Source of the DNA: Tumebacillus algifaecis | GTDB lineage: Bacteria > Bacillota > Bacilli > Tumebacillales > Tumebacillaceae | Direction: 5' to 3' | Assembly (NCBI RefSeq): GCF_002243515.1 | Contig: NZ_CP022657.1 | Coordinates: 3,891,501 to 3,955,500, forward strand | Length of the DNA stretch: 64,000 nucleotides | Shown: positions 9,993-54,352 of the stretch, in pieces | Position numbering within the stretch: position 1 is the stretch's first letter | Layout: every line of letters begins with the position of its first letter | The notes under the pieces: model-generated | What the model was told of the DNA's origin: nothing | The model's input: the letters and a program-made list of their open reading frames with translations, nothing else | Databases searched by the model: none | Made by a program: the position numbers and the translations under genes

Positions 9993-12900
9993 CTATGGAA
10001 TAGGGACCACAAGGCGCAGCTTACAGCCTTCCCCGGGTGCAGAACTGACCAGTTGTTTGCCCCCCACTTCTTCGATCCGTTCGCGCATCGTCGTCAATCC
10101 AAATCCGAAAACAGAATCTTGGAAGCCGATTCCGTTATCGCGCAGTTCGAAGTGGATCGTGCCGTGCTCCTGATACAGACGGAACTGAAACTTGGTGCTC
10201 TTGCCGTGCCGCACACCGTTGGTCAGCCCCTCCTGCAAGGCGTGGTACAGCGTCTTCCGCAATTTTGCATCCAGATTCGGCATCGGGTCGATCTGATATT
10301 CGATCTCCAAACCGATCTGTGTTTGCGCATCGAGCAGCAATTTTTCGAGCGCTTGCCCGACCTCCATCTGCGAAATGTTATCTTTTAGCATCCGAACGGA
10401 GATCCGCACTTCGTGCAGACCGTTGCGAAGATTATCCTGGATCGCGTCCATGATTGGCAGCGCTTTGGTCAGATCTTTGGCTGCCAGCCGCTTGCAAGAC
10501 TCCATCTGCACCACGGAGGTGGTGAGCGTGTGGCCGATCACATCATGCAATTCGTGGGCGATGCGCGTTCGCTCCTCTAGCACCGCAACGTCAGACCATG
10601 CCCGCGCCGTCTCTGCGATCGATCGCTCCAGCTGTCGTTTCGATTCTTCGAGGTCGGCCGTGCGACTGCGCACCTTTTCCTCCAAGTTAGCGTACAGGTT
10701 GGCATTCTCGATCGAGATCGCCAACTGCGTGCTGAGCAACTGCAACAGCTCGACGCGCTCGTCGGTAAACGCATGCGTGGTCAAATTGTTTTCGAGATAG
10801 AGCAGTCCGACCTGCTTGGCCTGATGTCTGACCGGCAGGCACAAGAGCGATTTGACCTGACGAGTTTGCAACGAGAGATCATTTCGAAACAGCCCTTCCT
10901 GACAAGCATCATGCAACACCACGCTTTCACCCGTTCGCGTCACATAATGCACCACCGCCTGACTCACTTCCACCTCGGTATCGTGCGGGACAAATCGCCC
11001 ATGCTGTTCGAAGAGCATCGTCCCCACTTGTGCCCCCGCATTTTCCAGCAGGATCTGCATCATCTTTTCGATCAGCTTCGGCAGCACGATCTCACCTGTG
11101 ATCGCTTGGGCCGACTTGATCACGGCGAGGTAATCCAAATTGTGCTCCCGTTGGACCGCCGACAGCTCCTCCCCAAAGAGATGCGGGTAGCGCGCTTTCA
11201 TTTGCATGGCCTTGCTCTTCGCGCCCCATTTCAAAAAGGCATGGTAGGCGGCGCGCAAATAGGAATGGGCAATCTGCGTTTTGCCGATGTGCAGATAGAA
11301 GTTGGCCGCACACTCATGCGCAATCCCCTCGTCATTCCAGAACTGTTGCTCCAAAGCGCGGGAAACGGCCTGATCGTACAAATCCATCGCCCGTTGGCTG
11401 TGCCCCTTCAGGCGCGCGACTTCTGCGGCCAACAGAATCGATTTGTGCCGATAGTTCTCCGGACAGCGCTGTGCGGCGCGGTGAAGCAGTTTTTGCAAGC
11501 GACCGATCTTTTTCCACGCTTTCGTCTGCTCCTGCTCCTCCAACTGATCGAAATGCTGAGTAAGCGTCAGCGCATACAAATAAAAGAAATTGACCTCGAC
11601 AAAATGCCCGCGCGGAAACATCTTCTCCCGCTCCATCTCTTCGGCAAGCAGCAACGCCTGTCCATACTCCCCCGCCAAAAACAACAACAGCAACTTGCTG
11701 TACAAGTAGTTGAGCGGTTGCATCTGATTGGGTTGGCGACCTTCCAGCACCGTTTGGCGATATTTGGCCTCATCAAAATCTGGGTGGGACAGCTCGAACG
11801 GGCCTGCCCCCTGTCCGATCAGATTGCGGACGGCACCCATGAGAATCTGCGACGCTTGCAACAACCATTCGTTGTTGCTGATGCGCACGGCAGGCAGTCC
11901 CTTTTGCAATTCGGCCTGCACCTCATCCAACGGGATGCCGCTGGCGATCATCCCATGCACCTTCATGACCAGAGAGTTGGCAAAGATTCGCAGGTCCCCT
12001 GTCTCCTGCGCCCGTTGCAAGACGGTCGCAAACGATCGGTTGACATCGCGCATCGGTGCGACAAATGGCATGATGTTGGTCGTATAGCTAAACAAGCCCT
12101 GACAGCTGACCCCGCCTTGCCGTCTCCAATAGGCCACTTCTGTCTCCACACCCAACTGCCCATAGGCCGCGCTCAGTTCAAAGTTACCGCGTTGTGCGAC
12201 CAGATTCCCGTACATGATATAGGCGGTGCAGGTCGGTGCCGCCGGCCCATGCGCCAAGGAGAGTTCTAGGATCTTCAAAATCAGCCGGATCATCACTTTT
12301 TCATCGACCACCAGCATCACCACTGCCATCGCCCACAAAATTTCCATCTGCGCGATCACCTTGGCATCGCTGGCGAACGGCAAAGCGGTCACGTTCTGAA
12401 TGCGCTTTTTGGTCAGGCGGCTTCTGATCCTCACATAGGCGGCCGTCCGCGAGGCCACGTCCGATTGCAACGGACGCTTCATGCCAAATTGTCGCAACGC
12501 CTCCATCCCCAGTTCGAACGACTTCTGGGCGCGATTCTCTCTGGAGACGGTCAAAATCCGAAATTTATAGATCGGCAGTTTCTCCACATCCGTTTTCGCA
12601 TGCTGTAGCAGCAGAGCAAAATAACGATCCGCCTCTGCAACCTGTCCACCAAAGGACACCAGTTCGAAACGCTCTCGATACAGCTCAAACGTCAAGGCGT
12701 GCTGATCCTGCCAACAGTTTTCCGTCAGCAGCGCGATCCCATTTTCACAAAAACGCAAGGCTTGTTCATAATCGAGCGCTGCCTTAGCACGTTTGGCAAC
12801 CGCCAGATTGAGTTGTGCCACATATTCGCGCTCCGCTTGAGTTTCCAGTCGGTCCAACGCGCGATTAAAATGATTCACCTGTTCATACTGCAAGTCTGCA

Positions 12901-15062
12901 GAAAGGTCTGCGTCTGAACCGGTTTGCAACTGTCTGGCGAGCAGTAGGTGAATGCGCTTTTTTTCATCCTCCGCCACCGACGCATAGGCGGCCTGTTGGA
13001 TGCGGTCATGCGCAAATTGCAATTGGTTTTGCCACTCGATCTGCTCATCCGCTTCTGGCAAGCGATACAGCCACTGACTGCTTGTGCCTTTCGCATAGAG
13101 CAGACGCTCTTCGATCAACAAGAGCAGATCGCGGGCGATCGCAGAGAGCTCGGTTGTCAACACATGCTGCAAGGTCTCCAGTGAAAACGTCATCCCGATA
13201 CAGGCGGCCGCTCCTAACAGGTGGCGCGCGCGCTCCGGCAATTCCCTGATCGTGCTCAGAATGTATTCAACTTGGCTTTCGTTCACCGCTAAGGCGTTGA
13301 TGGTGTCCATGTCCCATCGCCACTCTCCGGTCTGCACCTCTAAACTGAGCAATCCTTTTGCGGGCAACGCTTGCACAAACTGTTTGACCACAAACGGGCT
13401 GCCTCCCGTTTTCTCCGTCACCGATTGGGCCAACTGAGCGACGCTTTCACCCGAACTGCGCAGCGTGTCCTGTAACAGCTTTTGCACATCGAACACCGTA
13501 AGCGGACGCACGTGCATTTCGATCAAGGTAGCTTGTCCAGTCTGCAATTTGGCGATGCGCTCTAACAACGGGATGTCGGCGCCCTCCTGCTCGACCCGAT
13601 AACTGCCGATCACCAGCAGATGCGGAATCTTGCGCTCCGTCAACAACACTGCGATCAGATGAGCAGAGGCCGGGTCGGCCCATTGCAGATCGTCGAGAAA
13701 GAGCAGGACGGGATGTTGAGCGGTCGGCAGAATGCTGAGCACTTGAAGAATGGCCAGCAGAAAGCGGTTGTTCGTTTCCTGGGCCGGCAATATCGGAACG
13801 GGCGGCTGTGATCCGACGATCAATTTTAACGCAGGAAGCGCCTCCACCAGCACGCCGCTCAGTTGACCCAACGCGCGCAAGATCTCCTCTTTCCACCAAG
13901 CAATGCTCACTTCGCCTTCTGCCAAAATGCGCATCACCCATTGCTTGAGCGCTTGCAACACACCTTCATAAGGCGCATGTCTGATGTTTTGTTCAAATTT
14001 TCCTTCGAGAAAGCAAACCGGCTCCTCTGAGACACGATGGTTTAACTCGCGCACCAGTGTAGATTTGCCAATTCCAGCCGGGCCGACGAGCAACACCCCT
14101 TCACTGCCTCCGCGCCGCGTGCGTTCGAACGCCGCTTGCAGTGTCTCCATCTCCCGCTCCCGACCGTACACCAGATTGGAGAGATGAAAATGCTCAGAAC
14201 GGTCTTCCTCGCCGAGGATGAGGTCCTCGATCCGCCCGTGTTCACGCCATTGATCTTTGCAACGCGTCAAATCATGCAACAGACCAAAAGCGCTCTGATA
14301 GCGCTCCTCTGCGTCTTTTGCCAAACATTTCAGCACCAGATCACCAAGGATCGTCGGCACTTGCGGATTGAGCAGAGCTGGCGATACCGCCTCCTGCGTA
14401 AAATGCTGATAGATCAATTTGACAGCGTTTTGTTCTTCAAAAGGCAGTCGTCCGGTCAGCATCTCATAGAAGATGACGCCCGCCGAGTACAGGTCGGAAC
14501 GATGATCTGCCATTCGGTTCATGCGCCCGGTCTGCTCCGGTGAACTGTAGGCGCTGTATGATTCGAAAACCTGCTCGTCCGACCGTTCGTCGGGGAGCCA
14601 AGCCGCACTGGAAAAATTGGTGATTTTCACAACAGGTTCGACCGATCGCACCAACAGGTTCTCGGGGCGCAGATCGCGATGGATGATGTTTTTGCGATGC
14701 AGTTGCAAAATCGCTTCTGCCAAAGCGATAGCCAGATCGAAAAAGCGTGACAGGTGCAAGCGCTCCATGTCCAACACCTGTCTCAGCATCTCACCGCCGC
14801 CATCTTCCAGCAGGAGCAACCACGTGTGCCGATAACGCTCCAGTCCGATCGGAGCGACCACGCCTAGCGAAGCGGCCCGTTTCGCCATCTCATACTCATA
14901 TTTGAGCTTTAATACATCTTGCGGAGTCGGATATTCCATCTGCAACGTCTTGATCAGCACCCGCTTCCCTGTCCTGGCGCAACTTGCCCGATAGAGCACG
15001 GTCTGCTGTTCTTGGTGCAACAATTCGAACGCCTCATATTCAGAGTCTGCTGGAAACTGCAT
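9993..15062 (-). CDS. Giant Ser/Thr (pseudo)kinase-AAA ATPase-GAF-histidine kinase
   Basis: A 1689-residue multidomain signalling protein. In order: a protein-kinase-like domain (about 10-270), with VLIKTL at K38, HRDLRPENLL at 128 and the signature SPEQTGRMNR; an AAA/NTPase module with Walker A GPAGIGKST (about 327-335) and Walker B VLLFLDDLQWAD; a long helical TPR-like middle; a GAF domain (about 1300-1460); a coiled linker; and a NarL-type histidine kinase with ERTRIAHELHD (phosphoacceptor His near 1505) and ATPase motifs NGVRHG and DNGIGF. The kinase domain has NFS in place of DFG and no Gly-rich loop, so catalysis by it is doubtful. The start is the ATG at 15062, 8 nt after GGAGG. It likely phosphorylates the response regulator at 5098-5790. 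Confidence 0.9.
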   Translation of the reverse strand: MQFPADSEYEAFELLHQEQQTVLYRASCARTGKRVLIKTLQMEYPTPQDVLKLKYEYEMAKRAASLGVVAPIGLERYRHTWLLLLEDGGGEMLRQVLDMERLHLSRFFDLAIALAEAILQLHRKNIIHRDLRPENLLVRSVEPVVKITNFSSAAWLPDERSDEQVFESYSAYSSPEQTGRMNRMADHRSDLYSAGVIFYEMLTGRLPFEEQNAVKLIYQHFTQEAVSPALLNPQVPTILGDLVLKCLAKDAEERYQSAFGLLHDLTRCKDQWREHGRIEDLILGEEDRSEHFHLSNLVYGREREMETLQAAFERTRRGGSEGVLLVGPAGIGKSTLVRELNHRVSEEPVCFLEGKFEQNIRHAPYEGVLQALKQWVMRILAEGEVSIAWWKEEILRALGQLSGVLVEALPALKLIVGSQPPVPILPAQETNNRFLLAILQVLSILPTAQHPVLLFLDDLQWADPASAHLIAVLLTERKIPHLLVIGSYRVEQEGADIPLLERIAKLQTGQATLIEMHVRPLTVFDVQKLLQDTLRSSGESVAQLAQSVTEKTGGSPFVVKQFVQALPAKGLLSLEVQTGEWRWDMDTINALAVNESQVEYILSTIRELPERARHLLGAAACIGMTFSLETLQHVLTTELSAIARDLLLLIEERLLYAKGTSSQWLYRLPEADEQIEWQNQLQFAHDRIQQAAYASVAEDEKKRIHLLLARQLQTGSDADLSADLQYEQVNHFNRALDRLETQAEREYVAQLNLAVAKRAKAALDYEQALRFCENGIALLTENCWQDQHALTFELYRERFELVSFGGQVAEADRYFALLLQHAKTDVEKLPIYKFRILTVSRENRAQKSFELGMEALRQFGMKRPLQSDVASRTAAYVRIRSRLTKKRIQNVTALPFASDAKVIAQMEILWAMAVVMLVVDEKVMIRLILKILELSLAHGPAAPTCTAYIMYGNLVAQRGNFELSAAYGQLGVETEVAYWRRQGGVSCQGLFSYTTNIMPFVAPMRDVNRSFATVLQRAQETGDLRIFANSLVMKVHGMIASGIPLDEVQAELQKGLPAVRISNNEWLLQASQILMGAVRNLIGQGAGPFELSHPDFDEAKYRQTVLEGRQPNQMQPLNYLYSKLLLLFLAGEYGQALLLAEEMEREKMFPRGHFVEVNFFYLYALTLTQHFDQLEEQEQTKAWKKIGRLQKLLHRAAQRCPENYRHKSILLAAEVARLKGHSQRAMDLYDQAVSRALEQQFWNDEGIAHECAANFYLHIGKTQIAHSYLRAAYHAFLKWGAKSKAMQMKARYPHLFGEELSAVQREHNLDYLAVIKSAQAITGEIVLPKLIEKMMQILLENAGAQVGTMLFEQHGRFVPHDTEVEVSQAVVHYVTRTGESVVLHDACQEGLFRNDLSLQTRQVKSLLCLPVRHQAKQVGLLYLENNLTTHAFTDERVELLQLLSTQLAISIENANLYANLEEKVRSRTADLEESKRQLERSIAETARAWSDVAVLEERTRIAHELHDVIGHTLTTSVVQMESCKRLAAKDLTKALPIMDAIQDNLRNGLHEVRISVRMLKDNISQMEVGQALEKLLLDAQTQIGLEIEYQIDPMPNLDAKLRKTLYHALQEGLTNGVRHGKSTKFQFRLYQEHGTIHFELRDNGIGFQDSVFGFGLTTMRERIEEVGGKQLVSSAPGEGCKLRLVVPIP

Positions 15063-15093
15063 ACTGCACACCTCCGTCCGTTCCGTCATGTCT

Positions 15094-15898: not shown

Positions 15899-16879
15899 AT
15901 GCAGAATCCGTTTGAAAATCCGCCGCGCACAACCCGCCAACTGCCGTTTACCGGCATCGAGTTTGGAGGCGTGCGCGAAGCTCCCCCGATCGCTCAGTTG
16001 CGCGGCGAGCTGAATCAGCATTTATTTGCCTTGACTGCAGACCTGCCTGAGCCGCTATGCGCCGAAGCGCATCAGGTCCTGCGCGGATACTCAGGCGGGG
16101 ATGGCGATTTCTACCGCCTTTTTTACACCCCGATCTGGTCTTTTCTGCACTGGGTACCGGAAGCGAGCGGCCAAGCGGCCGATGCAATACTGCTGCAGGA
16201 AGCTCAGAAAGCACATGCGATGTCCCTGTTTCTCTATCTCTGGGACGACCACCTGTCCGATCATCTGCTGCCTGTCGATCTGCTTCGGCTGCAAGTTCGC
16301 ACGCTGGCCTGGCAGAGCTTTGCATCGCGAAGCCGCTCGCTGTGCAAACGCATCGGGACCAACCCGAGCTTGCCCGATTGGCATGCCAACTCTTATCTCG
16401 CCTCTCTCCATCGACCGCGACACGTATTGAATCTGGAGGACTACTGCCAACAGTTTCAACAACAGGTATCGATTTGGACAGTGGTTCCCTATCTGTTGGG
16501 CAGCGTCGTAGGAGGTGACGAGTCGGCGTCTGCCCTCGCCCGCCTGATCATGAATTTCGCGGTGGCTTGGCGATTGCTCGACGATGTGCAGGACATTGAA
16601 CACGATCTGCTGCGCGGGACAGAGTCGGCCGTCTGGATCGAATTGGACCCAAGCGGCAAAGAACTGTGGGCTGCCTGCCACTCCCAGCCGCAATCTGCAG
16701 AAGCGTGGGCCGAGCTGGTGCAACACATTCAAGGCTCGGGCTGCTTGCAACGACTGTTACATCTGATCGACTGCAACTTGCAGACCGCATCGGCAACGGC
16801 CGCCGCCCAAGGCTGGTTTGGCATCGTGCAAGAACTTGAGCAGTGCAGACAAGGGATTGGCATCCGTCCCAAGCGTTAA
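15899..16879 (+). CDS. Class I isoprenoid synthase-like protein
   Basis: A 326-residue, mostly helical protein. Two metal-binding Asp clusters are visible. The first is DDHLSD at 116-121 within FLYLWDDHLSD, and the second is DDVQD at 228-232 within AWRLLDDVQDIEHD. The second is the textbook prenyltransferase DDxxD; the first has the DDxxxD spacing seen in some terpene cyclases. The N-terminal GGKR/R motif that binds isopentenyl diphosphate is not evident, so chain elongation is doubtful. Terpene cyclisation or prenyl transfer to another acceptor, as in ComQ, is possible. GAGGAAG precedes the ATG. It stands alone about 0.8 kb past the giant kinase; a link to the peptide locus is speculation. 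Confidence 0.75.
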   Translation: MQNPFENPPRTTRQLPFTGIEFGGVREAPPIAQLRGELNQHLFALTADLPEPLCAEAHQVLRGYSGGDGDFYRLFYTPIWSFLHWVPEASGQAADAILLQEAQKAHAMSLFLYLWDDHLSDHLLPVDLLRLQVRTLAWQSFASRSRSLCKRIGTNPSLPDWHANSYLASLHRPRHVLNLEDYCQQFQQQVSIWTVVPYLLGSVVGGDESASALARLIMNFAVAWRLLDDVQDIEHDLLRGTESAVWIELDPSGKELWAACHSQPQSAEAWAELVQHIQGSGCLQRLLHLIDCNLQTASATAAAQGWFGIVQELEQCRQGIGIRPKR

Positions 16880-17300: not shown

Positions 17301-18542
17301 TCACAACGAGAACATGTGACAGAAATCGGTGAACATCGCCCGCAGCAATTTGTTCGACTCGAGGAGCTTGCCACCCTTAAATGGAATCAGCGTCACATGC
17401 TCCTCTGAGCGCTCTTTCATCGCCGCTTCTACATCATCGACATGTTGTGCCGTGATGATAAAACGTTTGGAGCGCAAATAGGTGGCAAATCCGATCACCG
17501 GATAACGATCGGCCGCCTCATATAATATCAGAAAACGTTCTTTCGGGTCTTTCGGGAACGACTTCTCCAACACATGAAGCACTCGCTCGATGCCGATCAT
17601 AAACCCGGTCGCAGGCATCGCCCGCCCAAATCTGCCGACCAGTTCATCATAGCGTCCGCCCGAGCAGATCGGGAGGTCAACATTAGGACCGTATCCTTCA
17701 AAAATCGCACCCGTGTAATAGGGCCGCGACAACAGCAGACTCAAATCGATCTGCGCGTGCTCCGCCGCGTTGTACAGGACGAGGATCTCCCAGATCGTGC
17801 GCAGATTGTCGAGCGCCGCCAAAGCCTGCGCAGACGAGGTGATCGCAGCCGCATCCGCCAAGATGGCGATCCCACCACGCAGGTGTGGCACTTTTAGCAA
17901 GCTGCCCCGCGACGCTTCCGATTCCACCTGCTCCTGGACCAACTGCTCATAGCGCACATACTCTTTGGCTACCAACGCGTCTGACAACTGCCCACGCAGG
18001 TTGTCGTCACCGACATGCTCAGCTAACAACGCCTGCACGAATTGTACCTGTCCGATCTCAAGTCGGAAGCCTTTCACCCCGGCCGCTTGCAGCGCACTCG
18101 CCGCCAATGCGATCAAGCCCGCATCCGCATCGGGGGAACCATCCCCCATCAGTTCCACTCCGGCCTGCGTAAATTCGGCATCGCGCCCCGCTTCCGGATG
18201 CTGTTGCCGGAAGATGCTCGCATTGTAGGACAGACGAATCGGCAGCGGTTTCTCTTTCATTAAGGAAGAGACCACCCGCGCGATCGGCGCCGTCATGTCG
18301 GGGCGTAAGGCGACAGTGCGTCCCGAGCGATCTACCGATTTGAACAGGCTGTCTTCCTCATCGCGAAACGCACCGTTTAAAAACGTATCTGCATATTCAA
18401 ATGTCGGAGTGACGATCTCCTCATAGCCCCAACGCTGAAACACTCCAGCGATCTTTTTTTCTACCTCTCGTTTTCGTGCTGCCAGCGGAGGCAACACATC
18501 GCGCACACCGCGCGGTTTCTCCAATCTTATTGGTTGATCCAC
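17301..18542 (-). CDS. hisZ: ATP phosphoribosyltransferase regulatory subunit HisZ
   Basis: A 413-residue paralogue of histidyl-tRNA synthetase that lacks catalysis and activates short-form HisG in the first step of histidine synthesis. The start region PRGVRDVLPP, motif 2 as SYNASIFRQQHPEAGRDAEF (near 115-134) and SGGRYDELVGRFG with the short ending fit HisZ better than HisS: the class-specific anticodon domain is reduced. I place the start at a GTG at 18542, 10 nt after GAGGG. The gene stands alone here, with hisG and other his genes not in the window. A palindromic element lies just upstream. Confidence 0.85.
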   Translation of the reverse strand: MDQPIRLEKPRGVRDVLPPLAARKREVEKKIAGVFQRWGYEEIVTPTFEYADTFLNGAFRDEEDSLFKSVDRSGRTVALRPDMTAPIARVVSSLMKEKPLPIRLSYNASIFRQQHPEAGRDAEFTQAGVELMGDGSPDADAGLIALAASALQAAGVKGFRLEIGQVQFVQALLAEHVGDDNLRGQLSDALVAKEYVRYEQLVQEQVESEASRGSLLKVPHLRGGIAILADAAAITSSAQALAALDNLRTIWEILVLYNAAEHAQIDLSLLLSRPYYTGAIFEGYGPNVDLPICSGGRYDELVGRFGRAMPATGFMIGIERVLHVLEKSFPKDPKERFLILYEAADRYPVIGFATYLRSKRFIITAQHVDDVEAAMKERSEEHVTLIPFKGGKLLESNKLLRAMFTDFCHMFSL

Positions 18543-18561
18543 TTTCTGCACACCCTCTTTA

Positions 18562-18914: not shown

Positions 18915-20057
18915 ATGTCCACGACTTCAGAAACCACGAAAAAGAAGTTATCCGAACGTGAACGTCAGATGCAACAAACCGTACTGAAACGCTTTCGTTC
19001 CAAAGTTAGCCCGTCTCTAGCGCAACTGGTCAAGAAATCTGACGCAGTCGCTAAACAGTTCCTCCCAAGCCCGTATGAAGCCCTTGATTTTGGGACTGAA
19101 GCACCGTTTGAAGAAGGCAAAAACAACCACGGCATTTACGGTCTCGAACGTATTTATGAAGACCGCGCCGTCCTGACTCCTTATTTTGAATGTTCCGCAT
19201 ACTGTCGCTACTGCTTCAAAAAGACCCGTACTCTGGGTGGCGAAGCAAAGCGCATGACCGATGAAAACATCGATGCGGCCATCCGCTATATCGGCAGCGA
19301 CTCGCGGATCAAAACGGTGTTGATCACCGGCGGTGACCCGTTTATCGACGCTGAATTGCTCGAGCAGGTACTGGTGAAAGTTGCAGAAATCCCGCACGTG
19401 CGCAACATTCGCGTCGGTACTCGCAACATCTTGTTCCAACCGGAAAAGATCACCGATGAACTGGCGGAGATGGTCAGTCGCTTCAACCATATCGATTATG
19501 AAAACCCGAAAAATTCGCGTAACATCTCGGTCGGTCTGTCGATCAACCATCCGGATGAACTGACCCCCGAAGTGGTGCGTGCCGCACAGCGCTTTATCCA
19601 GCGCGGGATCACCATTCGCGGTCAGACCGTTTTAATGAAAGGCATCAACGATGACGCCAAGACGATCCACGAATTGATCTCGCTGTTCCTGGCCGTGGGT
19701 ATCGTGCCGTACTACCTGTTCCACTGCATGCCGGTCATCGGTGCGAAGCACTTCCGCACCTCGGTGCAAAAAGGCATCGACATTTTGAAAGCACTGTCGC
19801 CGTTCTCCGGCTCGACCGCCCCGCACTATGTCTATGTTACCCAAATTGGCAAACACCGCGTCGGTCCGGGCCACCAGCTCGACTACGTAGAAATTGACGG
19901 CCTCAAATACATCAAAGCGACCACTCCGTACAAAGCTGCCGACTTCCTCGAGTTCTCCGACAACACCAAGCTACCACCGTTGCATGAGATCGACGAAAAT
20001 GGCTACGTAGTGTCCTACTATTTGGACGGAGATGACGACGAACTGGAGGTACTGTAA
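18915..20057 (+). CDS. KamA-family radical SAM aminomutase-like enzyme
   Basis: A 380-residue protein. The SAM/[4Fe-4S] cysteines are C93, C97 and C100 (CSAYCRYC), followed by ITGGDP at 137-142, as in lysine 2,3-aminomutase. K313 in IGKHRVGP aligns with the PLP lysine of KamA enzymes (K then x3 then GP). The two acidic residues that hold the lysine side chain in Clostridium lysine 2,3-aminomutase (in VCDLS and VVDAPGGGGK) are replaced: HCMPV around M272, and a non-acidic VYVTQIGK. Isomerisation of a non-basic alpha-amino acid to a beta-amino acid is therefore my best guess. GGAGG lies 8 nt before the ATG. It is the first gene of an operon with an ATP-grasp ligase (2 bp gap) and an MFS exporter. 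Confidence 0.85.
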   Translation: MSTTSETTKKKLSERERQMQQTVLKRFRSKVSPSLAQLVKKSDAVAKQFLPSPYEALDFGTEAPFEEGKNNHGIYGLERIYEDRAVLTPYFECSAYCRYCFKKTRTLGGEAKRMTDENIDAAIRYIGSDSRIKTVLITGGDPFIDAELLEQVLVKVAEIPHVRNIRVGTRNILFQPEKITDELAEMVSRFNHIDYENPKNSRNISVGLSINHPDELTPEVVRAAQRFIQRGITIRGQTVLMKGINDDAKTIHELISLFLAVGIVPYYLFHCMPVIGAKHFRTSVQKGIDILKALSPFSGSTAPHYVYVTQIGKHRVGPGHQLDYVEIDGLKYIKATTPYKAADFLEFSDNTKLPPLHEIDENGYVVSYYLDGDDDELEVL

Positions 20058-20059
20058 CG

Positions 20060-21451
20060 ATGACGCAGCAAAAATCGTTCGTTTTTATTGATAATATGTA
20101 CCCGCTCATCATGGCACGCCGTGCTGTCACCGCAAGAGAGCGTGGGTATCGCTCCGTGTTGATTTCCCTGACCCTCTCCGAGATGGAACTGAACGCGATC
20201 AAGGATTTCGAGACCAAACACAACATGCTGATCTTTGATGAGGTGATCTCGACCGATGCGTTTGACCTCGACACGTTGCGTAACCTGCTGGCCGGTTTTG
20301 AAAACGAGTATCCGATCGCTGCCTTCATGAGCAACATCGGCATGTTCCACCAAGGCACGCTGGTCGGCTCCAATGTTGCCATCCTCGCCGAAGAGCGCGG
20401 CTTGCCATCGCTAAGCTCCGATGCGGTTTTCCGTTGCAACAACAAGTATCTCATGCGTGACGCGCTTCGCCACGCAGGCGTACCGACCGTTGATTTTGGA
20501 CTTGCTACCGACGAAGTAACGGCTGTTGAACATGCGAACCGTATCGGCTATCCGATCATTTTGAAGCCGCTGAATGGCGCAGCTTCGCACATGATCGTCA
20601 AGTGCTCCAACGAGGAAGAAGTGATCAGCAAATTTAAGGATGCGATGGTTCGACTCCCCGCTTCCACCAACCTTGCCGCATATGAATCGGCACACAGCTA
20701 TCCGAACAAAGCGGGCGAACTGGTGCACTTCGATCCGTTGCGCACGATGCTGATCGAAAAGTATATCGACGGTCGTGAAGCGAGCGTGGAATTGCTGATC
20801 ACCGAAGATCAGGTCATTCCTTTGCTCGTGCATGACAAAGTGACGCTGACCGAGCAAGAGCGCTGCTTCTACGAGCACTTGCTCGTCGTGCCGCCGCAGC
20901 GCTTTACGGAACGTGAGTCCCAAGAGATGAAAGACTACGCCGTGGCGGTCGCCAAAGCGGTCGGTCTCAAAAACACTTTCTCCCACGTAGAACTGCGCTA
21001 TGACAATCATGGCACCGGCCCGCAGCTTTTGGAGATCAACCCGCGTATCGGCGGCATGTGGGTGCATGAAAGCATCCGCTCGATGGTTGGCATCGATTGG
21101 CAAGCCACCTTGGTCAGCCTGTGCGAAGGTACCTTTACCCCAGAGTCGCACTACGAATCGAGCGAAGAGATTCACGCCATGTTCTGCATCTATCCTCCCC
21201 ACTCCGGGCTCTTGGAAAATGTCGAGGGCATGGATCAACTGCAAGAACTGCCGGGGATGCTTTTTGCTAGGCAATCGGTTCCCAACGGCTCGGTCATCTA
21301 TGGAGATGATGAAGAATGCTTTGCCGTGATATGCTTCCTGAAGGCGGAGTCGTATGAGAAAGTGTATGAAGTGTACGACCAAGCGTTGGAGCTCGTCACC
21401 TTTACGGTCAACCCGAATATCACATCGAGGGAAGAAGTGACAAAAGCATGA
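20060..21451 (+). CDS. ATP-grasp amino-acid ligase-like enzyme, paralogue 1
   Basis: A 463-residue ATP-grasp protein. An N-terminal Rossmann-like region (residues 1 to about 110) is followed by the ATP-grasp fold: ATP-binding lysine in GYPIILKPLNGAASHMIVK, then LIEKYIDGREASVELLI, and the Mg-binding LLEINPRIGG. The last motif is typical of L-amino-acid ligases (BacD-like), which join a carboxylate to an amine through an acyl phosphate. It starts 2 bp after the radical SAM gene and its stop overlaps the exporter start (ATGA), so the three are tightly coupled. It is clearly homologous to the two ligases at 23024 and 24450 but the most divergent of the three. Confidence 0.88.
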   Translation: MTQQKSFVFIDNMYPLIMARRAVTARERGYRSVLISLTLSEMELNAIKDFETKHNMLIFDEVISTDAFDLDTLRNLLAGFENEYPIAAFMSNIGMFHQGTLVGSNVAILAEERGLPSLSSDAVFRCNNKYLMRDALRHAGVPTVDFGLATDEVTAVEHANRIGYPIILKPLNGAASHMIVKCSNEEEVISKFKDAMVRLPASTNLAAYESAHSYPNKAGELVHFDPLRTMLIEKYIDGREASVELLITEDQVIPLLVHDKVTLTEQERCFYEHLLVVPPQRFTERESQEMKDYAVAVAKAVGLKNTFSHVELRYDNHGTGPQLLEINPRIGGMWVHESIRSMVGIDWQATLVSLCEGTFTPESHYESSEEIHAMFCIYPPHSGLLENVEGMDQLQELPGMLFARQSVPNGSVIYGDDEECFAVICFLKAESYEKVYEVYDQALELVTFTVNPNITSREEVTKA

Positions 21452-22722
21452 CGAATGCTGTCCCAGCGCCGGACAACAAAAAATCGTTCCGGCACTTGTA
21501 CCAATTGACAGCAGGTAAGACGATTTCCGACATCGGTAACAATTTTGACATGGTTGCGCTGAACATGTTCGTTTACCTGCTGACCGACAGCGCGCTCTAT
21601 ATGGGGCTGTTCATGTCAATCCGTCTGATCGGTGCTTTTGTGGCTGGATTCTATGCAGGTATTCTCGCTGACCGGATGAACCGCAAGCATCTGATGATCA
21701 TTTCCGATATCGGACGTTCACTCGCCCTCGTCCTGATCGTACTCACACCGAGCGATTACCAGTTTTACATGCTCTTGCCTGTCACCTTCGTAATGGGATG
21801 CCTGTCCACGCTGTTTGGTGTATCGTTACAGTCGAGCATCCCATCGATCGTCGGCAAGGAGAATATCATCAAGGCCAATGCGGTCTTGACCGCTTGGGGC
21901 TCGGTCGCGATGGTGATCGGTCTGTTCGGAGCTGGGATCTTGCTTGGCAAAGTCTCCTATGAGACGGTGTTTATCATCGATGCCTGCACCTACCTGCTGT
22001 CAGCGCTCAACCTGCTGTCACTACCACTGCGCACCAGCGAAGAGCGCTTAGCCGGCGCCCCGAAAGAGAACATGTCGTTCTTCAGCGAATTCAAGCTGAT
22101 CTACGTCTACCTGCGCACCGTTCCGATCCTGCTGTCCTTGATGGCGATCCGCCTGATCGACACGTTCGGCTCGGCGGCGCACAATGTCGGGATGCCGGTC
22201 TTCTCAGCCCAGCTCAATCCTGCGCAGCCCTCCTTTTATATGGGGATCATCTGGGGTGTCTGGGGCATTGGCAACTTGATCGGCTCGCGAATCATGGCGA
22301 AGAAGTTTACGGGAGATGATACCTCGCTCAATGAGCGGGCCTTTGGGATAGCAACGTTCTTCATGTCGTTCTTCTTCATCCTGCTCTTCTTCGAGAGTCC
22401 CATCTACCTGATTCTGCTCTTTGCCGCCTTAGCGGGCATTGCGGACGGTGTGTCGATGATCGTCTACAACACCCGCCTCCAGCAAACGCCCGATGAGAAA
22501 CGCGGCCGGATGTTTGGCGTCTCGTCCACCTTGCAGACGGTCGGCTTTGCGATCGGCATGGTGATCTGCTCACCTCTGTTCGATCTGTTCAAGCCTGTCG
22601 TCGTGGTCGGCGTCCTGCACGGTCTGCCGATGATCATGGCGCTGCTGTTCACCTTGTACTACTTTGGAAAATGGAAACCGAACCGAACCAGAAAAAGAGA
22701 AAACAGCCACGATGTCGCATAG
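21448..22722 (+). CDS. MFS exporter of the KamA/ATP-grasp cluster
   Basis: A 424-residue protein with 12 predicted membrane segments. The MFS motif in the loop between helices 2 and 3 reads LADRMNRKHLM (near residues 68-78). Its start overlaps the stop of the upstream ATP-grasp gene (ATGA), and a terminator overlaps its own stop, so it closes the first operon of this cluster. By position it probably exports the product of the radical SAM/ATP-grasp enzymes and gives self-resistance. Confidence 0.85.
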   Translation: MTNAVPAPDNKKSFRHLYQLTAGKTISDIGNNFDMVALNMFVYLLTDSALYMGLFMSIRLIGAFVAGFYAGILADRMNRKHLMIISDIGRSLALVLIVLTPSDYQFYMLLPVTFVMGCLSTLFGVSLQSSIPSIVGKENIIKANAVLTAWGSVAMVIGLFGAGILLGKVSYETVFIIDACTYLLSALNLLSLPLRTSEERLAGAPKENMSFFSEFKLIYVYLRTVPILLSLMAIRLIDTFGSAAHNVGMPVFSAQLNPAQPSFYMGIIWGVWGIGNLIGSRIMAKKFTGDDTSLNERAFGIATFFMSFFFILLFFESPIYLILLFAALAGIADGVSMIVYNTRLQQTPDEKRGRMFGVSSTLQTVGFAIGMVICSPLFDLFKPVVVVGVLHGLPMIMALLFTLYYFGKWKPNRTRKRENSHDVA

Positions 22723-22740
22723 ACATCGTGGCCGTTTCTT
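22706..22740 (+). terminator. Terminator after the MFS exporter
   Basis: An 11-bp perfect stem (22706-22716 with 22722-22732) around GCATA, followed by CGTTTCTT. It overlaps the stop codon of the exporter. Confidence 0.8.
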
Positions 22741-23023
22741 CGTTAGGAACACGAAAACGCCGCTTTACTGTTTCCTCTTCTGTCGATTCTGCGAAGCAGG
22801 CCCCCCGGCCGAACAGCAGAGCGTCTTCTGTCCGTATTTTTCTACGCGCTTGTCATTTATCCTGCTTACACTTAGTAAAATTGTCCTATGAATTCAATAA
22901 AGTTACAGAAGCATAAAAATTAGTTGCAGTGCATTTTATGACAAAGTATTATAAAATATATCAAGTTAAATCATGAAAAAGTATACAGACATAAAAACTG
23001 CATGGACAGGAGGTCTTGATCGC
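22741..23023 (+). other. Intergenic region with the promoter of the second ligase operon
   Basis: About 280 bp that become very A+T-rich towards the right. The only supported element is the promoter listed at 22924-22952. I see no riboswitch-like fold. Confidence 0.5.
22924..22952 (+). promoter_or_regulatory. Promoter of the two-ligase operon
   Basis: TTGCAG at 22924-22929, a 17-bp spacer and TATTAT at 22947-22952, within an A+T-rich tract about 72 bp before the first start codon. Confidence 0.65.
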
Positions 23024-24415
23024 ATGAGCCGACCACAAGCTGTCGTATTTATTGATAACGTCTTAGTGCTTTTGTTGGCCCGACGCGCTTCTTACGCCCA
23101 GGATTTAGGCTATCGTACCTATCTGATCGCCCCACCTATGCTCGAGGCACACACGGAAGCGATGGCGCAATACGAGCAAACCGAACGGGACGGTAGACCT
23201 ACCTACGATCAGATCTTTCCAACGGAGCATTTTGACATCGACACCTTGCGCACTCTGCTCGCAGAAATTGAACAAGAGGCGGACATCAAAGGACTGGTCG
23301 TCGGCAACGGGCCTTTTTGCAAAGATGGCTTGGTCGGTGCCCATGTCGCCACTCTGGCCGAAGAGCGCGGGTTGCCATCGCAAAACGCGGAGGCGCTCTA
23401 TCTGTGTGGCAACAAATACCTGATGCGCGACAGTTTCCGCGCGGACGGGCTGAACACGATCGACTTCGGCTTGGCAGTCGATGAAGCGTCACTGCTCACA
23501 CATGCTTCGCGGATCGGCTATCCCGTGCTGATGAAGCCGATCAACGGCGTCGCCTCACATCTGATTCTGAAAAGCAATAATGAAGCGGAACTGCTCGGCA
23601 ACTTCCGCCTCGCGATGGAGAAGCTGCCAGGATCAGCTTTTCAAGATTTTTACCAAGGCGTACACGCCTTTCCCAACCGACAGGGCGAACTGATGCATTT
23701 CGACCCGATGCGCTGCATGTTGCTCGAACAGTACATTCCGGGCCGCGAAGTGTCGATCGAGATGCTGATCACCGAAGACCGCTGCATCCCTCTCCTGGTG
23801 CATGACAAGGTGGACATCTCCGAAGACGCGCGCTGTGTCTACGAAAATCTGGCCATCGTGCCGCCGGTGCGGTTCACACAAGAAGAATGCAACGCTCTGG
23901 AAGCTTGTGCTGTGCAGGCCGTCCAAGCGGTCGGATTGAAAAACACCGTCGCCCACGTCGAACTGCGCTACGGAGAAAACGGGCTCGGCCCGCAGGTGTT
24001 GGAAATCAACCCGCGCATGGGCGGTGCTTACATCATGGAAAGTCTAAAAACGATGGTTGGAGTCGATCACAATACGACCCATGTCGAACTGATGACCGGC
24101 ACCTTTCAACCGAAAGCAACGTATGACGTTCTGCCAGAGTTGCACGCCATGATGGTGCTGTACGCCCCACACGGAGGTCTTTTTCAAGCGATAGATGGTA
24201 TCGAAGAATGTCAAGCCTTGCCCAGCGTCCTGAAGACGATGCAACCCTTTCCTGTCGGCCACATCATCCACGGGGATGACGAAGAAGTCAGCCTCTTGCT
24301 CATCTGGATGAAGGGCGACTCAGCTCAGCAGATTGCAGAGACCGGACAAAAGATCCGCGAGATCGTCACCTTCAAGATCGACCCGAGCGATCAAGCAAAT
24401 CAGCCTGTCACGTAA
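23024..24415 (+). CDS. ATP-grasp amino-acid ligase-like enzyme, paralogue 2
   Basis: A 463-residue protein, the same length as paralogue 1 and closest to paralogue 3. Key parts: RIGYPVLMKPINGVASHLI with the ATP-binding lysine, LLEQYIPGREVSIEMLITED, and VLEINPRMGG for metal binding. An N-terminal VVFIDNVLVLLLARR opening is shared by all three ligases. The start is the ATG at 23024, 9 nt after AGGAGGT; the frame is open 17 codons further upstream but without a ribosome site. The gene has its own promoter and is followed 34 bp later by paralogue 3. It probably adds one building block in an NRPS-free peptide pathway with the radical SAM enzyme. Confidence 0.87.
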   Translation: MSRPQAVVFIDNVLVLLLARRASYAQDLGYRTYLIAPPMLEAHTEAMAQYEQTERDGRPTYDQIFPTEHFDIDTLRTLLAEIEQEADIKGLVVGNGPFCKDGLVGAHVATLAEERGLPSQNAEALYLCGNKYLMRDSFRADGLNTIDFGLAVDEASLLTHASRIGYPVLMKPINGVASHLILKSNNEAELLGNFRLAMEKLPGSAFQDFYQGVHAFPNRQGELMHFDPMRCMLLEQYIPGREVSIEMLITEDRCIPLLVHDKVDISEDARCVYENLAIVPPVRFTQEECNALEACAVQAVQAVGLKNTVAHVELRYGENGLGPQVLEINPRMGGAYIMESLKTMVGVDHNTTHVELMTGTFQPKATYDVLPELHAMMVLYAPHGGLFQAIDGIEECQALPSVLKTMQPFPVGHIIHGDDEEVSLLLIWMKGDSAQQIAETGQKIREIVTFKIDPSDQANQPVT

Positions 24416-24449
24416 ATCAAATCCTATACGTATTGGAGGTCTTACCGTT

Positions 24450-25838
24450 ATGAACCGACCGCAAGCAATTGTCTTTATCGATCATGCGCAGGCCGTGCTC
24501 TTGACCCTTCGCGCCGCCTATGCCCAAGATCAGGGCTATCGAACCTTCCTCATCGCTCCGCCCTTCGAGCCCGGCCCACTCTCTGCCATGCAAAACTATG
24601 AACGGGACAAGCGCGACGGGAAACCGATCTATGAACGCATGTATATGACCGAAGATTTTGACATGGATACGCTGCGCTCCTACATCGCCGAAATCGAGCA
24701 AGAGGCTGACATCGCAGCGTTTATTACCGGCAATGGCCCGTTCTGCAAAGACGGTTTGGTCGGCGCCCATGCCGCGATCTTGGCCGAAGAGCGCGGCCTG
24801 CCATCCCAAGGCAGCGACGCGCTCTACCTCGCCAACAACAAATACTTGATGCGCGACGCCTTCCGCGCAGGCGGACTGAATACGATCGACTACGGACTCG
24901 CCGTCGATGAAGAGTCGGCCATCGCCGAGGCCGCACGCATCGGCTATCCGGTGCTGATGAAACCGATCAACGGAATCGCCTCACACTTGATCATGAAGTG
25001 TAAAAACGAAGACGAACTGCGCACCCACTTCCGCCATGCGATGGAAAAACTGCCCGGTTCGACCTTCCAATCCTTCTACGAAGGTGCACACTCCTATCCG
25101 ACCAAGGATGGCGTGCTGATCCACTTTGACCCGATGCGCTCCCTGCTGCTTGAACAGTACATCCCAGGCCGTGAAGTGTCGGTAGAAGTGCTGATCACCG
25201 AGGACCGCTACGTTCCGCTGATCATGCAGGACAAAGCGATCGTCACCGAAGAGGAACGCTGTGTCTATGAGGACATCATGATCACACCACCGATGCGCTT
25301 TACCGAAGAGGAGTGCCGCGAACTGGAAGCCTATGCAGTTCAGGCAGCGAAAACGATCGGTTTGAAGAACTCGATCGCCCACATCGAACTTCGCTACGGA
25401 GAAAACGGCCTCGGCCCGCAGGTGTTAGAAATCAACCCGCGTTTAGGCGGCGGCTACACACACGAAGTCCTGCGCACGATGGTCGGCCTTGATTATGTAT
25501 CGGCCTATATCGAACTGATGACCGGAACCTTGCAAGCAAAGGAATCGTATGAACGCAAAACAGAGCCCCACGGGTTCTTCACCCTGTTCGCACCACACGC
25601 GGGCTTTTTCGAATCGGTCGAAGGTCTCGAAGAATTGAAAGCTATGCCGGGTATCTTGAACACGATGCATCCGTTCGCTGTCGGAACCGTCATTCCCGGC
25701 GATGAAGAAGAGGCCATGCTGTTGTTGGTTTGGATGAAAGCTGAAACCTCCGAAGAACTCCTCGCCACCTACAAGCGGGCCAAGGAGATCATCAAATTTA
25801 ACATCGATCCGACCAAAACTTCCGTACCGCTCACGTAG
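24450..25838 (+). CDS. ATP-grasp amino-acid ligase-like enzyme, paralogue 3
   Basis: A 462-residue protein. It shares with paralogue 2 long identical stretches such as NGPFCKDGLVGAH, GYPVLMKPINGIASHLIMK and YGENGLGPQVLEINPR; the third carries the Mg ligands. The start is the ATG at 24450, 9 nt after TTGGAGGT; the upstream open frame overlaps paralogue 2 and is not used. Paralogues 2 and 3 look like a recent tandem duplication and therefore differ mainly in the substrate-facing segments. The operon ends with a strong terminator. Confidence 0.87.
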   Translation: MNRPQAIVFIDHAQAVLLTLRAAYAQDQGYRTFLIAPPFEPGPLSAMQNYERDKRDGKPIYERMYMTEDFDMDTLRSYIAEIEQEADIAAFITGNGPFCKDGLVGAHAAILAEERGLPSQGSDALYLANNKYLMRDAFRAGGLNTIDYGLAVDEESAIAEAARIGYPVLMKPINGIASHLIMKCKNEDELRTHFRHAMEKLPGSTFQSFYEGAHSYPTKDGVLIHFDPMRSLLLEQYIPGREVSVEVLITEDRYVPLIMQDKAIVTEEERCVYEDIMITPPMRFTEEECRELEAYAVQAAKTIGLKNSIAHIELRYGENGLGPQVLEINPRLGGGYTHEVLRTMVGLDYVSAYIELMTGTLQAKESYERKTEPHGFFTLFAPHAGFFESVEGLEELKAMPGILNTMHPFAVGTVIPGDEEEAMLLLVWMKAETSEELLATYKRAKEIIKFNIDPTKTSVPLT

Positions 25839-51933: not shown

Positions 51934-52839
51934 TCATCTGATCAAAAAGAGAGCATTAATTTCCTCCTCCCGTTCGCCCCACACTTTGATTAGCTCTCTT
52001 GACATGCGATCGTGGGTAAGCGGTTCTTTTCGGCTAACATCTAATTCTACATTTTCATGGATACGATCTTCAAGAAGATCGATCCACTCAAGTCGTCCTT
52101 TGTAGTCATCCTCTTTTGCCCTTACCTTAAATTTTCCAATGTAATCCTGTTCCTTGACAGCAATGCGCGCTGCTTCCTTAATCGCGTTAACGATCATACT
52201 CGCATTTCTTTTCCTTCCCATTGACAATGTAAGGGACATTGTCTCTGATCCCGTGTCTTCAAGGTTATCAATCCACTTGTTCAGCACTTGATTTTTCCTT
52301 AATTTCGATGCGATCTCCGGATTGTCAGGTAAAGCCAACCTAACATCTACTTTTCGTATGATCTGTTGACGTTCCAATTTTTCAAAAGCATCTTCCCCAA
52401 CGATTGCTAAGAACTCTAACAGGATCTCCTTAGTCAAACCTTTGCTGTCCTTATATAGCTTTCGCATGTATTGATTGAATCCTTCAATGCGAACGCCATA
52501 GTAATTCCGTTGGTATAAAATAACATTTGTGTTTTCGTTGTACATAAAACTTGTTTCCTCACCAATTCCTTGGTCAGGATTCAATCCGAGATCTTCGAGC
52601 CCAGCTTGACCTTTTGTTGCTTTTTTCGGAAGGAAATCCATTCGGATCTTTACAAGGTGTCCAAGCCAATTTCCATCGGTCAAGCGTTCTATTTTTTCAA
52701 GTCGGATCGGGTAGTCCTTCACATTAAACTCACGATCCTCCAGATTTGCGGCTTTGGCTACCTCCAGCATTTTCTTAAACTTTACCCCAGAAGGCAATGA
52801 AACTCTGTAAAAGTCAATCAGAATCGATCTGTTTGCCAT
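51934..52839 (-). CDS. Soluble protein of a two-gene accessory operon
   Basis: A 301-residue, highly charged cytosolic protein. The N-terminus reads ILIDFYRVSL, followed by NWLGHLVKIRMDFLPKK and a conserved-looking FMYNENTNVILYQRNYYGVR (near 100-119); the C-terminal half is helical. It reminds me of phage/defence-associated DUF proteins of about 300 residues, but I cannot name the family with confidence. GAGGTG lies 12 nt before the ATG. Base composition is more A+T-rich than the chromosomal genes to the left, consistent with transfer. Confidence 0.75.
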   Translation of the reverse strand: MANRSILIDFYRVSLPSGVKFKKMLEVAKAANLEDREFNVKDYPIRLEKIERLTDGNWLGHLVKIRMDFLPKKATKGQAGLEDLGLNPDQGIGEETSFMYNENTNVILYQRNYYGVRIEGFNQYMRKLYKDSKGLTKEILLEFLAIVGEDAFEKLERQQIIRKVDVRLALPDNPEIASKLRKNQVLNKWIDNLEDTGSETMSLTLSMGRKRNASMIVNAIKEAARIAVKEQDYIGKFKVRAKEDDYKGRLEWIDLLEDRIHENVELDVSRKEPLTHDRMSRELIKVWGEREEEINALFLIR

Positions 52840-53104
52840 ATTCGAGTTAACACCTCTTGTACAATGATTTTCTATAATAATACAAGTTAGTTAACCACGA
52901 AGCAATGATCATTTTTGTTTATGAATTTTATTCTGACAAGAACTGCATACTCATACTAAATTGCTCAGTGTCAGCCCCAGTTCCCATACATCCTATTTAT
53001 TCGGGTCAAGTCACCTCCTTTCAAATTCACAGTGATTGGGAATATAGAGATAGGCTCTATTCAGTCAAAAAAAGAGCTCCCTTGATGGAGTGCCCATTTT
53101 TTCC

Positions 53105-54352
53105 TCAATCTAATTCACTTAGAATAGTTTCGTACTCAATTTTTTTCTCGCTATTGTCCTCAAAAAACTTAGTTACCTTATCTACAAATTTTGACCCCGT
53201 TATTTGTAGGATATCTCGCAATTCCTCAACTACATATTTGTCAAATTCCATTTCGCTTAGAGCTGAAAGAATCATTTCAGAATTACGGTCAGCGTACATT
53301 TTATTGTTTTTGTTCTTTTTTGAAAGTCGCTTCTTCATAAACACGTACTCCCGGTAGTGTTCCAGGAAGTTTATTTGTTTTAAAACAAGATACTGTATAT
53401 CTGTTGGTGGAGTTTTCGGTAGATTCTTCATTAGTTTGACGATAAATTCTGAATAATTAAGTTCATCTAGCAGTTGCTTTCCGATAATGCTACACACTAC
53501 TCCCCAAGTATTTGGTCCTCGATGTCTTTTCTCGAACATATAACTTACCCAGAATTCTCTTAACCGCTGTGAAGAATTAGCAACTGCATTAATCTTGTCC
53601 GGGTGAGAATGAATAAACATCACCATATCAACCTCGTCCAACCAAAGCACATTAGACAAAGCATCAGACAATTCACAATCCCGTAAGTCAAAAATATCGT
53701 TAATAAACGAATGGAATCTATCATCAAGATAATAATCTTCATCTAACTCGGCAATAACTTTCACCATATCTTTAAAAAAATCTTCAAATTGGTGTTTTTG
53801 AACACTCGATCGAATTTGACTCACAAGATGACTGTGACCTTTAAGTCTAGATGTTTTCGTGAAGTCGAAATGATCCTTAATTTCCTGAAGTAGCACCTCT
53901 TTACTTCCAGGAAACACAAATTTCGGAAGATTCGATATTAAAAACAACCAGAAAGATTCAACGTATGCATAATCAATCGAGTTAGATTTTGCATGTGCAG
54001 AATCATTTCTTCTAGCTCGCCAGAAACTAACCTGATCTCTCACATCGCTAGGTATATCAAACATTGGTTTTTTTTTATTTTCGATATAACCCTTAAGATG
54101 AGTATCCCAAATATCATCGTTAACCAGTTTTCGCCTTACATCTTCCCATTCTTGTTCGGCATAACCATTTGGTGGTACTTTTGTCCCTAAAATCCTGTAT
54201 CTTAAAACGGAAGAAAAGAACAGAAATGAATAAAGTAACGCAGCTCTGTAAGCCCCTGCTTTATAACAAAGGATCGACTCCCCCATTAATAGTTTCGACT
54301 CGGTGTCGAAACTATGTTCAGTTACCCATTCCTCAATGCGCATTGGTCTCAA
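53105..54352 (-). CDS. HEPN-motif protein, putative defence RNase
   Basis: A 415-residue, A+T-rich gene. The N-terminal 130 residues are helical and contain RRNDSAHAKS, a good match to the HEPN RNase motif (R-x4-6-H with a polar residue after R), preceded by a helix with GAYRAALLYSFLFF as in HEPN folds. The remaining 280 residues are unrecognised. Stand-alone HEPN proteins of this kind often act as abortive-infection nucleases. I place the start at the TTG at 54352, 8 nt after AGGGG; an ATG three codons downstream is the alternative. A promoter lies at 54375-54403. Confidence 0.75.
   Translation of the reverse strand: MRPMRIEEWVTEHSFDTESKLLMGESILCYKAGAYRAALLYSFLFFSSVLRYRILGTKVPPNGYAEQEWEDVRRKLVNDDIWDTHLKGYIENKKKPMFDIPSDVRDQVSFWRARRNDSAHAKSNSIDYAYVESFWLFLISNLPKFVFPGSKEVLLQEIKDHFDFTKTSRLKGHSHLVSQIRSSVQKHQFEDFFKDMVKVIAELDEDYYLDDRFHSFINDIFDLRDCELSDALSNVLWLDEVDMVMFIHSHPDKINAVANSSQRLREFWVSYMFEKRHRGPNTWGVVCSIIGKQLLDELNYSEFIVKLMKNLPKTPPTDIQYLVLKQINFLEHYREYVFMKKRLSKKNKNNKMYADRNSEMILSALSEMEFDKYVVEELRDILQITGSKFVDKVTKFFEDNSEKKIEYETILSELD

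Follow-up and report, generated by a model that had tools for sequence, protein, structure and literature searches.

A compact set of three genes in a 64,000-nucleotide stretch of the Tumebacillus algifaecis genome (contig NZ_CP022657.1; the whole stretch is hereafter the window) encodes a KamA-like radical S-adenosylmethionine (SAM) enzyme, an ATP-grasp ligase (AG1), and a major facilitator superfamily (MFS) transporter, and this cassette probably produces a short peptide with a rearranged (beta-)amino acid and exports it. In the mechanism envisaged, the KamA-like enzyme would shift the amino group from C2 to C3 of its amino acid substrate, which is probably neither lysine nor glutamate nor arginine, AG1 would use ATP to join the rearranged amino acid to a second one, and the MFS protein would pump the peptide out of the cell. 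Two further ligases, AG2 and AG3, which would reflect two duplications of the ligase in T. algifaecis, may lengthen the peptide or widen the range of partner amino acids. A preliminary description of the locus had proposed that all five genes together make and export a peptide containing a beta-amino acid, with one ligase per bond or substrate. The proposal survives in a narrower form, supported by the three-gene cassette, the affinity of its ligase, and the coupling of its genes, but neither the five-gene unit nor the allotment of one ligase to each bond can be upheld.

The conserved unit is three genes and not five. The KamA family of the cassette was found in 18 genomes, each counted once, with nine loci drawn from one scan and the others from genome searches in which few candidates were scored per genome. 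These comprise T. algifaecis, three other Tumebacillus-type genomes, three Brevibacillus-like and two Kroppenstedtia-like genomes, Caldalkalibacillus, three further members of the class, two Myxococcota, a deltaproteobacterial metagenome-assembled genome (MAG), Pseudolabrys, and a Diapherotrites MAG. The order KamA, ligase, MFS is kept in 14 of the 18, from Bacilli to Myxococcota, the deltaproteobacterial MFS gene being cut by a contig end, and in a further two KamA and ligase genes stand together with the MFS match absent from the fetched stretch. Genome G1143 has adjacent KamA and MFS genes (L089, 7920-10403), the family ligase not being found genome-wide at E<=1e-40, and the archaeal Diapherotrites MAG has, where a contig ends, a KamA of 46% identity (L016, 8347-9468), with the ligase not found genome-wide at E<=1e-20. 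Within a sample of 298 genomes from one class, KamA is present in 12, and 11 of these 12 also have the ligase, which occurs in no other genome of the sample (p = 3.5e-19, inflated by kinship and by prior knowledge of six of the 12, namely five from the nine-locus scan and G1160, which is G403). In a phylum sample of 398 genomes KamA gave 651.8 bits in T. algifaecis and no more than 253 in any other; the family occurs in one of 398 sampled genomes of Pseudomonadota, the seed itself, and in two of 195 sampled Myxococcota, one of them the seed. Plasmids yielded no close copy: the KamA matches in 135 plasmid records all lie below 60% identity, the 30 best at about 35% or less. The coupling of KamA, ligase, and MFS genes is supported by their conserved order, their co-occurrence, and their co-divergence, whereas AG2 and AG3 are additions of the Tumebacillus clade.

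The KamA-like protein is, judged by its sequence, a divergent relative of the KamA/2,3-aminomutase superfamily that stands outside the curated members. In common with lysine 2,3-aminomutase (2a5h) and its glutamate and arginine relatives it has the radical SAM fold, the CxxxCxxC motif (C93/C97/C100), and the position of the lysine that binds pyridoxal phosphate (PLP). The candidate PLP lysine, K313, aligns to K337 of 2a5h with a two-residue gap, and all of the best 120 homologues have a lysine at that position, plain alignments placing it two columns off. Unlike the lysine enzyme, it has K102 for Arg134, M272 for Asp293, and V308 for Asp330, of which K102 and M272 are family-specific, the former position being Lys in 117 out of the best 120 homologues. 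The protein stays under the threshold of each reported KamA model: 186.0 against 199.2 bits for TIGR00238, 176.5 against 525.4 for lysine 2,3-aminomutase (TIGR03820), 200.4 against 650 for glutamate 2,3-aminomutase (TIGR04368), and 192.5 against 600 for arginine 2,3-aminomutase (BlsG; TIGR04468). At 293 and 330 the glutamate reference, L029, which passes TIGR04368 with 695.3 bits, has Lys and Asn, not Met and Val, and at 293 the arginine reference, L097, has Asp in place of Met. Given that both side-chain aspartates are replaced by Met and Val and the carboxylate-binding Arg by Lys, the protein is likely an aminomutase for a substrate other than lysine, and that substrate is probably uncharged. 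A separate, canonical KamA gene (L017) is also present in the T. algifaecis genome. A reading of the locus as a defence system was set aside, the radical SAM domain giving only a weak viperin match (17.7 bits).

The three ligases are indeed paralogues of about 463 residues with intact motifs, as first described: identities are 47% for AG1/AG2, 46.5% for AG1/AG3, and 61% for AG2/AG3, and 16 conserved ATP-grasp positions show no variation among the three, nor across the 25 rows of the alignment. Among the families that Foldseek ranked, the best structural matches of AG1 are L-amino acid ligases, ahead of carboxylases, and sequence search likewise places L-amino acid ligases first. The LAL_C2 domain (PF18603, cut-off 29.4) is recognized in AG1 (31.3) and AG3 (30.7), AG2 being without a match. 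All three score far lower than the 850 bits of the model for BacD, the alanine-anticapsin ligase (NF053745; AG1 29.7, AG2 25.0, AG3 27.2), and the same is true of the biotin carboxylase model accC (TIGR00514, cut-off 626.5 bits; AG1 31.2, AG3 22.8, AG2 none). An affinity to L-amino acid ligases (BacD type) and not to carboxylases is supported, and AG1 is likely, as predicted, an ATP-dependent ligase that joins amino acids.

Phylogeny places the origin of the additional ligases within the Tumebacillus clade. AG2, AG3, and the extra ligases of other Tumebacillus genomes form a single clade (support 100/100), in which AG3 groups with the one extra ligase that T. avium and G403 each carry (100/96), and AG2 with P0136 (95/91); AG2 and AG3 are, on this tree, products of duplication within the clade. 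A single ligase is present in 13 of the 16 genomes that carry any, two ligases in two genomes, and three in T. algifaecis, a count in which G870 is covered only in its 19.5 kb region and a second, remote match in G405, of 30% identity, is left out. With a single ligase in most genomes, one ligase per bond fails as a rule. Between T. algifaecis and T. avium or G403, identity is 89-90% for KamA, 88% for MFS, 74-75% for AG1, 89-90% for hprK, and 78-79% for hisZ, and the ratio of non-synonymous to synonymous substitution (dN/dS) against T. algifaecis lies at 0.07-0.09 for both KamA and MFS and reaches 0.14-0.20 in the ligases, with synonymous sites near saturation. Tighter constraint on the radical enzyme than on the ligases would be consistent with a single, constant unusual amino acid that is joined to different partners, although the divergence of AG1 is only slightly above that of hisZ. 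The MFS protein scores 145.5 bits against TIGR00900, below the cut-off of 319.6, and is the predicted exporter of the product.

Among known systems, bacilysin of Bacillus subtilis offers a comparison, being an antibiotic dipeptide with an MFS exporter, BacE. BacD is only 20% identical to the ligase, however, and none of the five genes resembles an anticapsin-making enzyme; in the cassette the radical SAM enzyme would supply the unusual amino acid. The nearest described relative is the pboFGHI part of the Pbo cluster in Pseudomonas syringae pv. phaseolicola, in which genes for a KamA-like radical SAM enzyme, an ATP-grasp protein resembling L-amino acid ligases, a dioxygenase, and an MFS protein follow one another in one operon, pboF-pboG-pboH-pboI (PMC8473136). 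The same source also describes a further MFS gene, pboE, preceding pboFGHI, genes for non-ribosomal peptide synthetase (NRPS) and polyketide synthase (PKS) in the cluster, and the proposal that a Pbo secondary metabolite could take part in phaseolotoxin regulation (PMC8473136). The shared order of three genes tempers the earlier impression that the gene set is undescribed, but the 2-oxoglutarate-Fe (2OG-Fe) dioxygenase and NRPS/PKS genes of Pbo have no counterpart among the five T. algifaecis genes, to which the check was applied, the farther genes of the window being only partly scanned. In the literature search, aminomutase, ATP-grasp, radical SAM, and gene cluster came together only in PMC8473136, subscription papers lying mostly outside its reach, so that a description elsewhere is possible.

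The pairing itself recurs. On a Burkholderia cenocepacia replicon (L094, 5598-10196) KamA, ligase, 2OG-Fe dioxygenase, and MFS genes stand in the order reported for pboFGHI, and the ligase scores 320 bits against the T. algifaecis ligase profile, where rhizobial ligases reach about 100. Homologues of the L094 KamA include proteins of Pseudomonas, Dickeya, and Xenorhabdus. The Vfm quorum-sensing cluster was considered as a match for the Dickeya homologues and rejected, since the text of PMC9306890 has no mention of radical SAM, ATP-grasp, aminomutase, lysine, or MFS and PMC8860905 gives no link. On two rhizobial plasmids (L093, 8848-11307; L095, 6401-9005) a KamA gene adjoins an LAL_C2-type ATP-grasp gene in opposite gene orders, with no match to the T. 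algifaecis MFS among open reading frames (ORFs) of at least 120 residues; unlike the cassette KamA, these proteins belong to the lysine/arginine branch and keep R134 and D293. The Pbo-type KamA, for which the P. savastanoi pv. glycinea protein P0192 served as a stand-in for PboF, occupies a separate branch of the tree, albeit with long branches, and has Asn at 258 and Glu at 134, the latter in all of the best 120 homologues. That ATP-grasp ligases adjoin KamA genes of three lineages is an argument for a genuine chemical partnership.

What the partners do, and in which order, admits of other answers. The ligase might act first, the radical SAM enzyme then rearranging the N-terminal residue of a dipeptide, or a carrier-bound residue, so that its substrate lacks a free alpha-carboxylate. 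The replacement of Arg134 by Lys in the cassette family and by Glu, which would repel a carboxylate, in the Pbo type speaks for this order, as does the KamA of the one Pbo-type locus examined, L094, adjoining the same kind of ligase; yet Lys could still bind a carboxylate and the Pbo-type KamA is a separate branch, and a ligase-first order is doubtful on balance. That the enzyme catalyses a different PLP-radical reaction, such as epimerisation, carbon-skeleton rearrangement, or deamination, and that the exported peptide carries an unusual amino acid other than a beta-amino acid, is unlikely, even though such chemistry would agree with altered side-chain and carboxylate residues around a retained PLP lysine and with equivalog scores all far under their cut-offs. 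Rearrangement to a beta-amino acid before ligation is the preferred account.

In T. algifaecis the five ORFs are all open at the places first given for them (Table 1). The KamA-like, AG1, and MFS genes nearly touch or overlap as described, with a gap of 2 bp and an overlap of 4 bp, and their translation is therefore probably coupled. AG2 and AG3 are separated by 34 bp and both have good ribosome-binding sites; AG2 could be read from a longer ORF beginning at 22973, but 23024 is the best start, as 24450 is for AG3. A promoter of their own had been claimed for these two genes. The hairpin at the end of the MFS gene and a promoter-like sequence found by eye favour it, but a sigma-70 consensus scan of 22733-23023 listed no sites and terminator-like sites in the scanned region are at chance level (nine, against a mean of 7.8 in shuffles), so a separate AG2/AG3 transcript is plausible and the claim of a promoter stands only in part. 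No Rfam element, riboswitches included, reached the gathering score in the window.

Table 1. Features of the cassette region, in window coordinates.
Feature	Position	Strand	Remarks
KamA-like radical SAM enzyme, 380 residues	18915..20057	+	radical SAM PF04055, E=1.3e-13
AG1, core ligase of the ATP-grasp family, resembling L-amino acid ligases, 463 residues	20060..21451	+	
MFS transporter, predicted exporter, 424 residues	21448..22722	+	PF07690
Terminator-like hairpin, 11 pairs, loop 5	22706..22732	+	spans MFS stop codon
Possible AG2-AG3 promoter, TTGCAG-17-TATTAT	22924..22952	+	by eye only, unlisted by sigma-70 scan
AG2, extra ATP-grasp paralogue, 463 residues	23024..24415	+	ATG 23024 behind AGGAGG
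AG3, extra ATP-grasp paralogue, 462 residues	24450..25838	+	ATG 24450 behind GGAGG

Histidine genes flank some copies of the cassette. A divergent hisZ lies upstream in T. algifaecis (17301-18551), L083, L015, and L086, the last not of Tumebacillus type. In L015 and L086 it is followed by hisG, L086 has hisD as well, and in L009 and L085 a gene resembling histidyl-tRNA synthetase is situated a few kb upstream of the cassette (in L085 by a weak tblastn match only). Of the 17 loci fetched, the remaining 11, among them L016, showed neither hisZ nor hprK near the cassette by tblastn. The presence of hprK downstream in T. algifaecis, L083, and L015 places the cassette within a syntenic core region there. 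Most neighbours other than the histidine genes differ between genomes; the largest non-trio family is shared by four of 16 loci, in a comparison that is incomplete, real genes having been dropped in G+C-rich loci and trio genes lost to the overlap filter in L012, L084, and L015. The cassette is thus not always beside a primary-metabolism operon, an association that had been named as fatal to the peptide idea. That the ATP-grasp proteins are instead carboxylases or purine-type ligases and the cassette part of central metabolism, for example of histidine, is highly improbable in light of the accC scores, the primacy of L-amino acid ligases in sequence and structure, the LAL_C2 matches of AG1 and AG3, the sporadic distribution (12 of 298), and the 11 of 17 loci without a his match, and the histidine genes near the remaining loci do not alter these odds. 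The cassette may still be linked to histidine.

Elsewhere in the window, a 1698-residue ORF (9993-15089) appears by eye to fuse protein kinase, ATPase, GAF, and histidine kinase parts, and a 326-residue ORF upstream of the cassette (15899-16879) matches nothing in Pfam or NCBIfam at E<=0.001. The G+C fraction is 0.376 over 52001-54000, compared with about 0.50-0.59 over 2001-50000.

Should the proposed function hold, three genes of about 4 kb would suffice to make and export a peptide whose unusual amino acid comes from radical chemistry, and they could be cloned whole into a laboratory strain. The enzyme would represent a new aminomutase specificity, could help to explain the KamA-ligase part of the Pbo cluster, and would exemplify an enzyme pairing found in three separate KamA lineages. 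A bolder view can be offered tentatively: a class of peptides made across phyla with neither ribosome nor NRPS, built around a new radical aminomutase whose pocket, with Met and Val for aspartates, would accept an uncharged substrate, possibly a ligated dipeptide, and in which the Tumebacillus clade multiplies ligases to obtain longer or mixed products. The cassette may thus mark an untapped class of small bacterial peptides.

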